Made by a program: the position numbers and the translations under genes. Below, piece after piece: positions 29,799-37,607 of a stretch of DNA of 42,140 bases; positions within the stretch are counted from its first letter, which is position 1; each line of letters opens with the position of its first letter. Source of the stretch: Phycisphaerae bacterium (GTDB lineage Bacteria > Planctomycetota > Phycisphaerae > UBA1845 > PWPN01); the NCBI GenBank assembly GCA_012729395.1, contig JAAYDF010000068.1:1-42140 (forward strand), read 5' to 3'. The notes below the pieces were generated by a model. It was not told the DNA's origin. It saw only the letters and a program-made list of their open reading frames with translations, and searched no databases.

Positions 29799-30968
29799 TC
29801 AAGCGGGCTCTTGGGTACCGAGGAGGCGAGCGGCCCCCAGATAGAACTTCCAGGCCGCCTCGATCTCTGCCAGCGTGTCGCCGCCGAATTTCTCAACCAG
29901 GGCTCGGGCGATCTCGAAGGCGACGACGTTCTCGGCGACGACGCTGGCGGCGGAAACCGCGCAAACGTCGCTACGTTCGTAGTCGCTGCGCTCGCGCTGG
30001 CGGGTCGCGAGGTTCACGCTGTCCAGGCCGCGGAGCAATGTGCTGATTGGCTTCATGACTCCTCGGACAACAACCGGCTGGCCGTTGGTCATGCCGCCCT
30101 CGAGGCCGCCGGCGTTGTTGCTCCGGCGAGTGAAGCCCAGGCAAGGCGTATCGCGCAAGCCCGGGTCGAAGTCGATCTCGTCGTGGACCTGGCTGCCGGG
30201 CCGTGAGGCCACGCCAAATCCGAGCCCGATCTCCGCCCCCTTGAAGGCCTGGATCGAACCGATCGCCATGAGCAAGCGGCCGTCGAGGCGATCCTGGTAG
30301 CGTGCGCAGCTCCCCAGCCCCGGTGGGCAACCAAAGACCCGAACCTCTACAATACCGCCGACGGTGTCTTTATCCTCTTTAGCCTTGCGGATCGCCCCTA
30401 CCATGGGCCCCACGGCGGCGGGATCGGCCGTGTAGACGTCGTTGCCGTCTCGGGCGACGATCAGCTCGGCGGGAGAGGCGTCGACGGGGATATTCGCCAC
30501 GGCCGGCCCGACCTGGGTCACGAAGCCCACGCACTGGATACCGAAGGGGATGAGTAAACTACGGGCCACGGCGCCGGCGGCCACGCGGGCGGCGGTCTCG
30601 CGGGCGGAAGCCCGTTCGAGCGTCTCGCGGCAATCGGTGGTCAGCCACTTCAGGCTGCCGGCCAAGTCGGCGTGCCCGGGCCGGGGACGGGAGACCTCCG
30701 GTGCTTCGTCGATCCGCCAGTCGCGGTTGGCGATCTGGATAGCCAGAGGCGAGCCGATCGTCCGGCCGCGGCGTATACCGGAGAGGATATTGACCGTGTC
30801 CTTTTCGATCTTTTGCCGTCCGCCGCGACCGTAGCCCCCCTGCCGCCGAGCCATCTCGCGGTTGGCCAACTCCATATCCAGGGTCACGCCGGCCGGCAAG
30901 CCCTCGATCAGCGCGATCAGGCCCTGCCCGTGCGATTCACCCGCGGTTCGGTACTCCAGGTTGCTCAT
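29799..30968 (-). CDS. aroC: Chorismate synthase
   Basis: A 389-residue enzyme of normal family length that makes chorismate from EPSP with reduced flavin, the last step of the shikimate pathway. Family signatures are present: RTAGESHGQGL with catalytic His13, RRQGGYGRGGRQ, the anion-binding SGIRRGRTIGSPLA, and FTRRSNNAGGLEGGMTNGQP. The start ATG 30968 is directly before the conserved NLEYRTAG. No other aro gene is nearby. A four-unit 33-bp repeat array begins 52 bases upstream of the start, between it and the double-SIS gene on the same strand. Confidence 0.97.
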   Translation of the reverse strand: MSNLEYRTAGESHGQGLIALIEGLPAGVTLDMELANREMARRQGGYGRGGRQKIEKDTVNILSGIRRGRTIGSPLAIQIANRDWRIDEAPEVSRPRPGHADLAGSLKWLTTDCRETLERASARETAARVAAGAVARSLLIPFGIQCVGFVTQVGPAVANIPVDASPAELIVARDGNDVYTADPAAVGPMVGAIRKAKEDKDTVGGIVEVRVFGCPPGLGSCARYQDRLDGRLLMAIGSIQAFKGAEIGLGFGVASRPGSQVHDEIDFDPGLRDTPCLGFTRRSNNAGGLEGGMTNGQPVVVRGVMKPISTLLRGLDSVNLATRQRERSDYERSDVCAVSAASVVAENVVAFEIARALVEKFGGDTLAEIEAAWKFYLGAARLLGTQEPA

Positions 30969-31020
30969 AGCCGGACCATTTTATACCGCCAGCCGCGAAT
31001 GACCAACGCAGAACACCCAC

Positions 31021-31148
31021 GAGCCCCAAGCGCAAGCGCGGGGATGACCCTACGAGCCCCAAACGCCAGCGCGGGGATGACCCCAACGAGCCCCAAGCGC
31101 AAGCGCGGGGATGACTTCACGAGCCCCAAGCGCCAGCGCGGGGATGCG
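31021..31148. repeat. 33-bp tandem repeat array 1 (family C, four units)
   Basis: Units begin at 31021, 31054, 31088 and 31121. Each has GAGCCCCAAGCGCAAGCGCG (or a near copy), then GGGATGA and a variable part of about six to seven bases. The period is 33 or 34. Confidence 0.92.
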
Positions 31149-31377
31149 GAGCGCCAGCGACGCCCCAAAAACCTCCCACAAGCAGCAAACTCATGCCGCG
31201 GGGTACAACGACGGATAACCGCGCAAGCGATCCCTCGAAGCGTCAAACGACCGGCTGTTCCGGACCTGTCATTTCTGGGCCCAGAGATGATCGCATCATG
31301 CCCATTCGCGAGGCCGGATCGCTCCACGAAAATGGTTCTATCGCTCGGCGAGTGTTGGGTACGTCGCTGACGCTTCA

Positions 31378-31631
31378 CATCCCCGCGCTTGCGCTTGGGG
31401 CTCGTAGGACCCCTCCCTCGCTTGCGCTTGGGGCTCGTGAAGTCATCCCCTCGCTCGCGCTTGGGGCTCGTTGGTGCTATCGCCGCGATGGCGCTTGGGG
31501 GACGTTGGGTTTTCCCCGCGCTGGCGCTTGGGGCTCGTAGAATTTCTCCCGCGTTGGCGCGTGGAGCTTGTTGGCTCATCCCCGCAGTCGCGCTTGGGGG
31601 GCGTCGGGCATTCCCTCGCGATGCGGGCTCG
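31378..31631. repeat. 33-bp tandem repeat array 2, opposite orientation (family C, about eight units)
   Basis: Units ending GCGCTTGGGGCTCG recur about every 33 bases from 31378 to 31631, growing more degenerate to the right. This is the reverse complement of array 1. The two arrays face each other across 229 bases that hold no gene. The array ends 40 bases after the stop of the double-SIS gene. Confidence 0.9.
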
Positions 31632-33615: not shown

Positions 33616-34500
33616 TCACGGCACGGGTCGCGGCCGGTCGTCGGGCGTGTGGATCCGCAGGGCCTCGTCGGTCAGTCGGGGGTTCAGCTTGCGAACCTCA
33701 GCAAGAATGCCATCGGCCTCGCTCTCGCCGCGGAGCCTGATCGCGGCCGCTTGATGCTGGGCCTCGACCAGCAGGAGTTCGGCCTCCCGCCGGGCAAGGG
33801 CCTCGATCCGGGCCACCTGCACGCGTGTCTCCTGACGCACTCGGTCGGCCGCGTGCTCACGGTCGGCCAGCATCAGGGCCAGCATGCTCTCCTTCATCCG
33901 CTCGGGCCGGACCAGCCGACGAACGCCAACCTCGACCAAATCAATCCCCAGTCGGGCGCGAGCCTCTGCCGCGGCGGCCCGGCGAACGCGGTCCAGCAAG
34001 ACGTCTACCGATGGCGGGATCGCCGCGGCATCGCCGGTCGAGTTGAGCCATTCACGCAATCCGTGGCCCGCCAACTCGCCGTCCAGAACATGCCAGACAA
34101 TCTCCCGCAAACGTCGCTCGGCACTGCCCGCGTCCGTAACCGCTTGCAGGTACGTCCCCCACCCCTGCGGGGTGACTCGCCAACAGGCGAAGGGTTCGAT
34201 CACCAGTGGCTCATGATCCGCGGTGAGGCGTTCCACCGGCTCGAAGGTCAGCAGCCGAAGCCGTCCGTCCACTCGCCGCACGGCCTGCCACGGCGCCTTG
34301 GAATGCAGGCCGGGCTCGGCCACCAAGGCGGCCCCCGGCAAACCCAAACCATGGACGACCGCCACTTCGCCCGGCTCAACCATCACCATGCTACGCCAAC
34401 CGACAAAGGCCACGACCGCCGCAGCGGCCCACAGCAGGAGCCGGATCTTCTTACGACCGGGCCGACCGACCGACGATGATGATGCCACCAAGGCTCTCAT
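33616..34500 (-). CDS. HflC-like SPFH/band 7 membrane protein
   Basis: A 294-residue protein with one N-terminal membrane helix (about 20–36), then MVEPGEVAVVHGLGLPGAAL and GLHSKAPWQAVRRVDGRLR, the start of an SPFH domain, and a long helical part (about 180–265) rich in Ala, Arg and Glu with EARARLGIDLVEVGVRRL, typical of HflC/prohibitin proteins. Such proteins form large cage-like rings on the membrane and in E. coli hold FtsH. The ATG overlaps the stop of the HflK-like gene by four bases (ATGA), so the two are made together. The sequence is divergent from textbook HflC, and no ftsH is in the window. Confidence 0.8.
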   Translation of the reverse strand: MRALVASSSSVGRPGRKKIRLLLWAAAAVVAFVGWRSMVMVEPGEVAVVHGLGLPGAALVAEPGLHSKAPWQAVRRVDGRLRLLTFEPVERLTADHEPLVIEPFACWRVTPQGWGTYLQAVTDAGSAERRLREIVWHVLDGELAGHGLREWLNSTGDAAAIPPSVDVLLDRVRRAAAAEARARLGIDLVEVGVRRLVRPERMKESMLALMLADREHAADRVRQETRVQVARIEALARREAELLLVEAQHQAAAIRLRGESEADGILAEVRKLNPRLTDEALRIHTPDDRPRPVP

Positions 34501-36056
34501 GGCGTCGGCCCTCCTGCCTCCGCGGGCTGGGACGCCACGGCCGCCTGCTCAGGAGCCGACGCACAGGCCGTGTGCCGAGCGCGGACCCAATCGGCGACCC
34601 CCGCCGCCTGCGCGACCCGCCGTGCACAGTCCACCTCCGCACCGGCCAGCAAATCCGCCGCACGAATCCGCGTCTGCGCCACCAGCCGTTCCCGCTCATT
34701 CATCGCGCGAGCCAGGGCGAGCGGCCGCTCGGACCGGGCGCGGGCGACCTCCGCCTCGGCCTCGCTGAACGCTGCGGAGGGCGTGTCGGGCGGCAGTCGC
34801 AGAGTCTCCAGCATCAACCCGTGCACCTGTATGCCACACCCCATCGCGTCAAGCCTTGCCTGCACCAACCGACGCCCGAGATCCGCCAGCTCCCCTCGCT
34901 GAGGCCCCATGCTCACCGACAACGACCGGCTGCCTATCAACTGCCGCATGACCGACTCGACCTCGGCGGCGAGGATCGCTTCCGGATCGGCCACGCCGAA
35001 GAGAAACGCCTCCACGTCGCCGATGCCGTAACGCACCTCCACAACGGCTTCAACCATCTGGCTGGCGTTCTGCTCCCCTGTCGGCGACCGAGACCACGCG
35101 GCGTCAGCCCGGTGCTCGGCGGGCACGCGCCAGGTGTCACCGGTGAGCGCGAGATCCAGCGGCGACCAGTCGACGCCCTCGCGATCGACGCCCGACGGTA
35201 CCGCGGTCAAGGCAACGACGAGCTTGCGGCCCGCCTGCGGCCGAACGCGAGTGGTGGTCTCGATGATCCACAGCGGTCGCAGGTGCACGCCCGGCCCACA
35301 GCGATCGACGATGCGTCCCAAGCGTTGCACGACGACCACTTCATCCGGCGCGACGAACAGGCATGACAAGGCCAGCCCGAGTGCCGCCGAGGCCGCCGCC
35401 AATGTGACTACCCAATAGAGTGCCCGCCTTCTTCGCCGGACGGGCGCGCGATCGAGCGCGCTCGGCATGTCGTCGTGCTGCCCTTCGGTGCCGAAGACAT
35501 CCTCGACACGCGGGCGATCGGATGGCGACTGGGCTCGCAGAGAGGCTGCTTCCTTTGCGTCGGGCCCTCGTTCGCGCCGGCCCAGAGCGAGAATGCCGAT
35601 GAGCGATTGCCGGGCGGGCTGGGTCTCCGAGGGTCGATGGCAGGCACCGACCAGCACCGAGGCCCAGCCTTGCTCGGCGTTGCGGTCGATGATTTGCCGG
35701 GCCGCGTCCGGAATCGGGATGCCGGCATCCTCGATGAACTCGGCGGTACCCAGGAGCAGGTTGAAGCCCGCGACCTCGCCGTCGATGCCCTGGTGCGGGA
35801 TGGGGTGCCAGCAGCCGCCCTGTGGGTTGTCGATATCGGACGTTGCGGCCGGTGGATTGCCCGCGGACGCCAAGGCTTGGGCGATGGGCGAGGGCGTCGG
35901 CCAGCGGACGCGGGCCGCCAGAGCGAGCACGTCGTCCGGGCTGACCGGGGCGATCGGATCCACCCGGCGCAGTTCGACTGCCCCGACGGCCGAGTCGGCC
36001 TCGGCGTCGAACGCGAGCAAGGCCGCGCAGCTCAGCCTTTCCGGCGGTGCTTCCAT
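34497..36056 (-). CDS. HflK-like SPFH protein fused to a P-type ATPase N-domain-like region
   Basis: A 519-residue protein. Residues about 213–235 are a membrane helix; 236 onward is an HflK-type SPFH domain (VAPDEVVVVQRLGRI, GPGVHLRPLW) with a helical C-terminal part. The first 200 residues are not HflK. Residues 13–162 read like the nucleotide-binding domain of P1B metal ATPases: VLALAARVRWPTPSPIAQAL (SEHPLA region, His replaced by Ser), PHQGIDGEVAG (GxGxxG region with its first Gly replaced by His), LLLGTAEFIEDAGI, and LIGILALG. The phosphorylation motif DKTGT is absent: FDAEADSAVG sits at that place. ATG 36056 has GGAGCGG upstream. The fusion is an inference from motif order. Confidence 0.75.
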   Translation of the reverse strand: MEAPPERLSCAALLAFDAEADSAVGAVELRRVDPIAPVSPDDVLALAARVRWPTPSPIAQALASAGNPPAATSDIDNPQGGCWHPIPHQGIDGEVAGFNLLLGTAEFIEDAGIPIPDAARQIIDRNAEQGWASVLVGACHRPSETQPARQSLIGILALGRRERGPDAKEAASLRAQSPSDRPRVEDVFGTEGQHDDMPSALDRAPVRRRRRALYWVVTLAAASAALGLALSCLFVAPDEVVVVQRLGRIVDRCGPGVHLRPLWIIETTTRVRPQAGRKLVVALTAVPSGVDREGVDWSPLDLALTGDTWRVPAEHRADAAWSRSPTGEQNASQMVEAVVEVRYGIGDVEAFLFGVADPEAILAAEVESVMRQLIGSRSLSVSMGPQRGELADLGRRLVQARLDAMGCGIQVHGLMLETLRLPPDTPSAAFSEAEAEVARARSERPLALARAMNERERLVAQTRIRAADLLAGAEVDCARRVAQAAGVADWVRARHTACASAPEQAAVASQPAEAGGPTP

Positions 36057-36396: not shown

Positions 36397-36987
36397 TTGG
36401 ATGGGCATCCAGACATTCCGAGCGACGCTGACCTGGTCCGGGCGGTGTGCGAAGGCGACAGGGCCGCATACGGCCTGTTGGTCGACCGGCACTTGGCCGC
36501 GGTCTACGCCGTCGCCCTGCGGCTGCTGCGAAACACCGCCGAGGCAGAGGACACCGCCCAGGATACCTTCGTGCGGGCAATGGAGAGGCTGCACCAGTAT
36601 GACCCGGAGCATTCGTTTCACAACTGGATCCTTAAAATCGCCACCAACCAGTCGCTCAACCGGCTGCGTTCGCGGCGACGCGAGCGGCGAATGCAGGAGC
36701 GGCTGGCCGGGCAGGAGGATCAACGATCCCACGCCCCGCCGCGCTCCGAGGCCAGCCCAACGGACTGGCGGCACTGGCTCGACCAGCTCGACGAGCCGCA
36801 ACGGCTGGCGATCATCCTGTTCCACTTTCACCAGATGCCGTACGCGGAGATCGCCGAGATCCTGGCGTTGCCCATCAATACGGTACGCACCCACCTGCAC
36901 CGCGGCCGCAAACGGTTGCGCGAGCTGATGGCCCAGGTAGTGCATTGGGAGGACGGTTCATGGCAGATCGCGACACCGAACGCCTGA
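36397..36987 (+). CDS. ECF-type RNA polymerase sigma factor
   Basis: A 196-residue sigma-70 family protein. Region 2 (about 10–90) includes DLVRAVCEGDRAAYGLLVDR, EDTAQDTFVRAMERL and NWILKIATNQSLNRLRSR, for core binding and -10 recognition. Region 4 (about 125–180) includes MPYAEIAEILALPINTVRTH and LHRGRKRLRELM, the helix–turn–helix for the -35 element. There is no region 1.1 or 3, so it is of the extracytoplasmic-function class. Start is TTG 36397, as no in-frame ATG fits. It overlaps the anti-sigma gene by 28 bases, as expected for a sigma/anti-sigma pair. What it responds to is unknown. Confidence 0.92.
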   Translation: MDGHPDIPSDADLVRAVCEGDRAAYGLLVDRHLAAVYAVALRLLRNTAEAEDTAQDTFVRAMERLHQYDPEHSFHNWILKIATNQSLNRLRSRRRERRMQERLAGQEDQRSHAPPRSEASPTDWRHWLDQLDEPQRLAIILFHFHQMPYAEIAEILALPINTVRTHLHRGRKRLRELMAQVVHWEDGSWQIATPNA

Positions 36988-37607
36988 TCGACGCCTGGCT
37001 GGACGGCGAACTGCCGCCGGAGCGGGCGGCCGGCGTCGAGGCTATGCTCCGCGAATCCCCCGCGCTTCGCCGCGAATACGCCCCACTGATTGAACTGCTG
37101 CGCTCGCCGGACCCCATCGTGATGCCTCCAGGTCTGGCCGACCGCATCAAGTCCGCGGTCCCCGCCCGGCATAGCCTCCGCGTCATGCCGGCCGGGCCGC
37201 GGGCTGCCATCGCCCCCGCGCGGTGGCGATACCTAAGGAGCACACTCGCGGCCGCCGCGTCGATCGCCCTGTTTGCCGGCGGGTGGTTTGCTTCGCAACT
37301 CTGGACCGGCTCGTCGAATCCCGTCGCCCAGCCGCCCTCCACGGCCGAAGCACCCACCGTGGTCATCGTCAGTCCCTGGGTACTCAACGGCTTGGCCCAA
37401 AGCCTGACCGTCGGCGGGTCGGTCAGCCCGGCCCCGTTTATCGCACAAGGGGCGGCCATGGAACTCCTGGCCGGCTCACTGCCCGCCGCCACAGATACTA
37501 CCGTGCCATTGGTTCTTCCGGAGCGAGCCCGACCCAGGGCCCCGGAACCACCGGCCAATCTACCGGACGATCGCTTCATCATCTTTCCGCCGGTCCAGCG
37601 GTTGTAG
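36960..37607 (+). CDS. Membrane anti-sigma factor
   Basis: A 215-residue protein. The cytoplasmic N-terminus (MADRDTERLIDAWLDGELPP) has the helical layout of anti-sigma domains but lacks the His-Cys-Cys zinc motif. One membrane helix lies at about 95–115 (LRSTLAAAASIALFAGGWF), and an extracytoplasmic C-terminus of about 100 residues rich in Pro, Ala and Ser follows. It should hold the sigma factor at the membrane until a signal releases it. ATG 36960 has GGAGG just upstream; the TTG at 36945 is less likely. The gene overlap implies coupled synthesis with the sigma factor. The extracytoplasmic part has no recognised domain. Confidence 0.82.
   Translation: MADRDTERLIDAWLDGELPPERAAGVEAMLRESPALRREYAPLIELLRSPDPIVMPPGLADRIKSAVPARHSLRVMPAGPRAAIAPARWRYLRSTLAAAASIALFAGGWFASQLWTGSSNPVAQPPSTAEAPTVVIVSPWVLNGLAQSLTVGGSVSPAPFIAQGAAMELLAGSLPAATDTTVPLVLPERARPRAPEPPANLPDDRFIIFPPVQRL

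Follow-up and report, generated by a model that had tools for sequence, protein, structure and literature searches.

The hflK-related gene and its hflC partner

The sequence analyzed here (the window) is a 42,140-nucleotide stretch of a Phycisphaerae bacterium contig, in which a minus-strand open reading frame (ORF) running from 36056 to 34497 encodes a protein of 519 aa. The start codon is the first ATG past an in-frame stop lying 22 codons upstream, and it is directly preceded by a purine-rich sequence (AGAGGGGAG/GGAAAG). A nearby broken ATPase gene, or a misassembly, was considered as the source of the pump-like N-terminus of this protein and rejected: the upstream frame ends at that stop, no pump-like sequence or gene was found upstream of or near the ORF, and its region contains no N. 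The features of the locus are listed below in window coordinates.

34497-36056, minus strand: HflK-related SPFH protein with a P1B-ATPase N-domain at its N-terminus ('NK'), 519 aa
35547-36041, minus strand: P1B-ATPase-derived pseudo-N-domain, residues ~6-170 (CopA and ZntA models, PDB profile, AlphaFold with Foldseek, shuffles)
35985-36011, minus strand: degenerate phosphorylation segment FDAEADSAV, FDKTGTLTV in pumps (alignment)
35883-35906, minus strand: degenerate E...SxHP segment RWPTPSPI, with R51 for Glu and S56 for His (alignment)
35778-35795, minus strand: degenerate GxG loop HQGIDG, with H88 for the first Gly and the second Gly, G90, kept
35436-35567, minus strand: low-confidence linker, residues ~164-207 (AlphaFold pLDDT <50)
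35364-35438, minus strand: predicted transmembrane helix, residues ~207-231 (full-length AlphaFold model)
34797-35363, minus strand: SPFH/Band_7 domain, residues ~232-420 (Pfam Band_7, TIGR01933, full-length model)
34557-34763, minus strand: C-terminal long helix, residues ~432-500 (full-length model)
33616-34500, minus strand: partner hflC-like gene, 294 aa (Band_7 1e-16, TIGR01932 7.5e-16)

Residues 235-492 of the protein match the HflK model TIGR01933 (6.9e-19) and residues 235-439 match Pfam Band_7 (3.1e-9), while the family-model search lists no match to the hflC model. In an HflK/HflC tree, of which the topology alone was used, the protein is placed on the HflK side. Its TIGR01933 score of 68.3 bits is nevertheless far below the curated equivalog cut-off of 159.4 bits, and it is therefore named HflK-related rather than HflK proper. 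The full-length AlphaFold model (pLDDT 65, pTM 0.36) presents, in order, the N-domain, the linker, one transmembrane helix, the SPFH domain and the long C-terminal helix; the linker is probably disordered, and the C-terminal helix is probably a coiled coil. The start of the hflC-like gene overlaps the hflK stop as ATGA, and the two genes are therefore probably translationally coupled. This arrangement resembles that of HflK and HflC of the FtsH-HflKC complex (TIGR01933, TIGR01932; E. coli cage, PMC12048511) in the N-terminal transmembrane helix, the SPFH domain, the C-terminal long helix and the paired, overlapping hflC gene. Besides its low TIGR01933 score, the window protein differs from HflK of that complex in having a 170-residue pump-derived domain and a linker before the transmembrane helix.

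Two other parts of the window deserve mention. Upstream of hflK, a divergent pair on the plus strand (36397-37607) was read by eye as an ECF-type sigma factor-like ORF followed by a membrane ORF, which may be its anti-sigma factor. Positions 30968-31579 hold low-complexity repeats (SPKRKRGD / ALALGAR...) that read as ORFs on either strand and are probably intergenic repeats.

A degenerate P1B-ATPase N-domain

The P1B metal-pump ATPases have a nucleotide-binding (N) domain to which residues ~6-170 of the window protein are homologous. On its own, the N-terminal part has no match in Pfam, and its NCBIfam matches are to P1B ATPase models only (CopA, 2.3e-5; ZntA, 5.8e-5); it also matches PDB entry 7qbz (8.3e-4). 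When a profile of four family members was searched against PDB sequences at a threshold of E<=0.01, all 17 matches were P1B ATPases, the best at 4.2e-6. Against an HMM built from 21 P1B N-domains of the same class, leaving out the five fusion proteins known to us (the window protein and four relatives described below), the window protein scored 39.7 bits and the best of 2000 shuffles 4.0, with the relatives at 46.2, 30.6, 29.2 and 19.6 bits, the last being a copy truncated at a contig end. The AlphaFold model of the domain (pLDDT 79, pTM 0.77) has the P1B N-domain order of strands and helices. Its best Foldseek matches are the P1B ATPases CopB, CadA, CopA, ATP7B and ZntA, with target-normalised TM-scores of 0.80 against the isolated CopA N-domain and 0.78 against that of HMA6. 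Chance resemblance or an assembly artefact can be set aside as next to impossible, given the profile, fold and shuffle tests, with profile matches in one superfamily alone, and given that independent genomes carry the fusion, and that GC3 is level along the whole gene, in a region free of N.

The domain extends from a degenerate DKTGT segment to the LIGILALG strand. With the P1B heavy-metal ATPases (CopA, ZntA, CadA; 2voy, 2b8e, 3skx, 7qbz) it shares the N-domain fold, with the elements in the same succession between the DKTGT position and the strand that re-enters the P-domain. Unlike these pumps, the window protein is without the transmembrane transport part, the A-domain and the P-domain core (Pfam gives no E1-E2_ATPase or Hydrolase match within the 519 aa), and DKTGT and most ATP-site residues are gone from it. 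Transport and ATP hydrolysis are therefore ruled out. Family models, the PDB profile, AlphaFold and Foldseek thus agree with an earlier note on this DNA, which had described an HflK-like protein bearing a P1B-ATPase-like N-domain but no DKTGT motif, transport helices or P-domain. Neither outcome that the note had named as refuting it, a different fold or a profile search with no match to that family, came about. That note had the similarity begin at residue 13; the homology holds, but it starts slightly earlier and reaches the degenerate FDKTGT segment.

The P1B match begins at this phosphorylation segment, which reads AFDAEADSAVG in the window protein and AFDKTGTLTVG in the pumps. Its Asp is Glu in the relatives, so that aspartyl phosphorylation is not kept. 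The changed His (S56) and first Gly (H88) of the ATP site had been pointed out in the earlier note, whose list was incomplete: the Glu has become R51, and the GN motif of the pumps corresponds to G103-T104, with T104 in place of Asn. Loss of the Glu extends to four of the four fusion-family members whose sequence covers that position. Judged by these residues, the pseudo-N-domain is catalytically dead. Conversely, W83, H84, D110, P114, R120 and W131 are invariant residues specific to the fusion family, which suggests a kept surface.

These data bear on the possibility that the domain has retained binding of nucleotide (ATP/ADP) or metal and tunes the cage as a sensor. Two glycines, G90 (second in GxG) and G103 (in GN), are invariant in the fusion family, and one relative, G006, retains HP, GxG and GN without the Glu. 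In ATP7B, the contacts to ATP are G1099, G1101, G1149 and N1150, and the role of the His, H1069, in ATP binding is contested (PMC3203118). Against a sensor stand the four replaced residues of the window protein and the loss of the Glu across the family, which disfavor the ATP-sensing role that had been suggested for the domain. The companion suggestion of metal sensing found no direct support, the alignment of all rows showing no metal-ligand motif conserved across the family in the N-terminal part. We consider a sensor of either kind improbable; among the proposed roles, that of a scaffold or docking module remains the best.

Distribution and selection of the fusion

The N-domain-HflK fusion occurs in 5 of 13 genomes sampled from the same GTDB family, the four besides that of the window (G001, G002, G011 and G006) belonging to three other genera. 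Scans of 397 genomes of the class and 392 of the phylum revealed no fusion beyond these five, and the named GTDB copies are from Planctomycetota/Phycisphaerae metagenome-assembled genomes. The five form one clade in trees of both the SPFH part (98/91) and the N-domain (100/100), and therefore the fusion most simply arose once. An hflC neighbor is present at four of the five loci; the exception is G006, which shows no hflC and whose SPFH part is eroded. The G001 copy lacks its gene start, where the contig ends. Metal-transport genes adjoining hflK-hflC are absent from the window and were not detected at the other four fusion loci. A recent origin from the P1B ATPase of the same genome (C274, 757 aa) was not supported, the five N-domains forming a clade separate from it.

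Between G002 and G011, dN/dS is 0.33 for the N-domain, 0.29 for the transmembrane and SPFH part, 0.18 for the C-terminal part and 0.63 for the linker. The value for the N-domain indicates that it is kept by purifying selection. It resembles the SPFH value and is half the linker value. Together with retention in four further genomes of three other genera, this makes it very improbable that the domain is without function and heading for loss as the remains of a P1B-ATPase-HflK fusion, as the lost catalytic residues, the long branches and the eroded SPFH part of G006 could otherwise suggest. Sequence, profile, fold, the four further genomes and purifying selection all favor what the earlier note had proposed, namely that a pump domain has been re-used on an HflK-like protein.

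Metal exporter-HflK fusions in the class

HflK-related proteins of the same class carry whole metal exporters at the same, N-terminal, end. The gene order of these exporter fusions is a triad of exporter-HflK, HflC and a second HflK. Representative loci are as follows.

L081:4974-7034, minus strand: SO_0444-type Cu/Zn efflux permease-HflK, in a triad with HflC and a second HflK
L090:6467-9484, plus strand: complete P1B ATPase-HflK of 1006 aa, then HflC and a second HflK (genome G099)
L125:6807-8336, minus strand: cation diffusion facilitator-HflK, with HflC, a second HflK and a P1B ATPase gene nearby
L121:4419-6311, plus strand: cation diffusion facilitator-HflK, with HflC, a second HflK and a P1B ATPase gene nearby
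L123:4436-5800, minus strand: second HflK with His/Asp-rich N-terminus
L146:6172-7572, minus strand: second HflK with His/Asp-rich N-terminus
L148:3558-4478, plus strand: second HflK with His/Asp-rich N-terminus
L149:6213-7490, minus strand: second HflK with His/Asp-rich N-terminus

Three kinds of exporter are represented. Among the permease fusions is a protein of 687 aa in which an SO_0444 family Cu/Zn efflux transporter (NF033936, 3.7e-100, exceeding the cut-off) precedes HflK. Taking frame length as a proxy, a long permease-HflK frame is present in about 13 of 298 genomes, and 15 SO_0444-type permease-HflK proteins form one clade (98); further triads of this kind lie at L071, L073, L077, L078, L080, L082, L087-L089, L091-L094 and L101. 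A complete P1B ATPase-HflK fusion was found in one genome of the class only, G099, where the protein matches both a P1B ATPase model (TIGR01525, 8e-174) and HflK (2.5e-35) and its sequence contains no N. The two cation diffusion facilitator (CDF) proteins have Cation_efflux matches of 3.8e-27 and 9.7e-13 joined to Band_7. A 1063-aa frame in G367, considered as a second giant HflK fusion, proved to consist of HflK and HflC read as one through a run of N.

A widespread HflK-like type of ~700 aa has a multi-helix N-terminal membrane part (L022, L025, L027, L122-L124, L146-L148), which aligns with CDF in hhalign at a probability of 89 (E 2.5e-6 over 237 columns; permease control, 0.4), and this type may be a worn CDF-HflK. 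The window's genome holds one triad of the multi-helix type, on C238, besides the 519-aa gene, and also an SO_0444 permease (C313). In many triads, and often in those of the multi-helix type, the second HflK opens with a stretch rich in His/Asp, such as MNQTHDHDHDHDHDH..., which may be a tail that binds metal. The HflK-HflC-HflK triads at L121-L124 have a separate P1B ATPase gene close by, at a distance of about 20-1200 bases.

In the window family, as in the exporter fusions of the class, an HflK-like protein begins with metal-export sequence and hflC adjoins. Those fusions, however, retain the exporter in full and belong to triads that include a second HflK, whereas the window family has the N-domain only and forms a dyad. 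The attachment of whole exporters to the same kind of protein in related bacteria suggests a link between the cage and metal export, and the pseudo-N-domain was probably inherited from a metal exporter-HflK fusion. On descent from an exporter-fused HflK the trees speak neither for nor against (p-AU 0.31-0.49 for the SPFH part and N-domain; 0.31-0.37 for the SPFH part branching with exporter-fused HflKs), and the same is true of descent from the P1B ATPase-HflK fusion of G099.

A possible docking module on the HflK/HflC cage

The N-terminus of E. coli HflK is cytosolic, as is the N-domain of the pumps, and the topology of the fusion is therefore consistent. By analogy with E. coli HflK, the putative HflK-family cage subunit of the window would display its catalytically dead P1B N-domain on a cytosolic N-terminus. 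The domain would have derived from an exporter-HflK fusion after loss of the transport part, and would form a docking or regulatory surface present in several copies around the HflK/HflC cage. This surface could recognize a metal exporter, for example by taking the place of the pump's own N-domain, or another client, keeping it at the cage for possible action by FtsH. A dead docking or regulatory module of this origin, on the cytosolic face of an HflK/HflC-type cage and with a partner that we infer, is the reading we favor, tentatively and at just under an even chance.

Alternatively, the domain may serve HflK more generally, in cytosolic interactions or in assembly of the cage, the metal link being gone and the pump origin purely historical. 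The absence of metal genes beside the five fusion loci, the altered surface with its new invariant residues and the long linker, predicted to be disordered, would all fit such a role. Metal exporters have been fused repeatedly to the N-terminus of HflK-like proteins in this class, which makes a role unrelated to metals less parsimonious, and we regard it as rather unlikely. A bolder extension of the docking module, which we hold to be unlikely, is that HflK/HflC-type cages of Phycisphaerae are metal-export platforms. A permease, a CDF or a P1B ATPase would be built into an HflK-like subunit, the cage would gather exporters and perhaps degrade or regulate them, and the window domain would be a dead remnant that captures or regulates a separate exporter by mimicry.

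In agreement with the earlier note, which knew of no described system like this one, we found neither metal exporters nor a P-type ATPase N-domain described as fusion partners of HflK in the literature searched, which lay largely outside subscription papers. A text search of a 2009 survey of prokaryotic SPFH proteins gave no mention of ATPases or permeases.

The known job of the P-type ATPase N-domain is to deliver ATP to its own P-domain, and here such a domain is kept by selection without a P-domain. The purpose of SPFH cages beyond the control of FtsH is an open question, and fusions name partners directly. The joining of unrelated metal exporters, and of one dead pump domain, to HflK-like proteins within one class makes a link between the cage and metal export testable, and the exporter-HflK pattern around the window protein deserves a study of its own.
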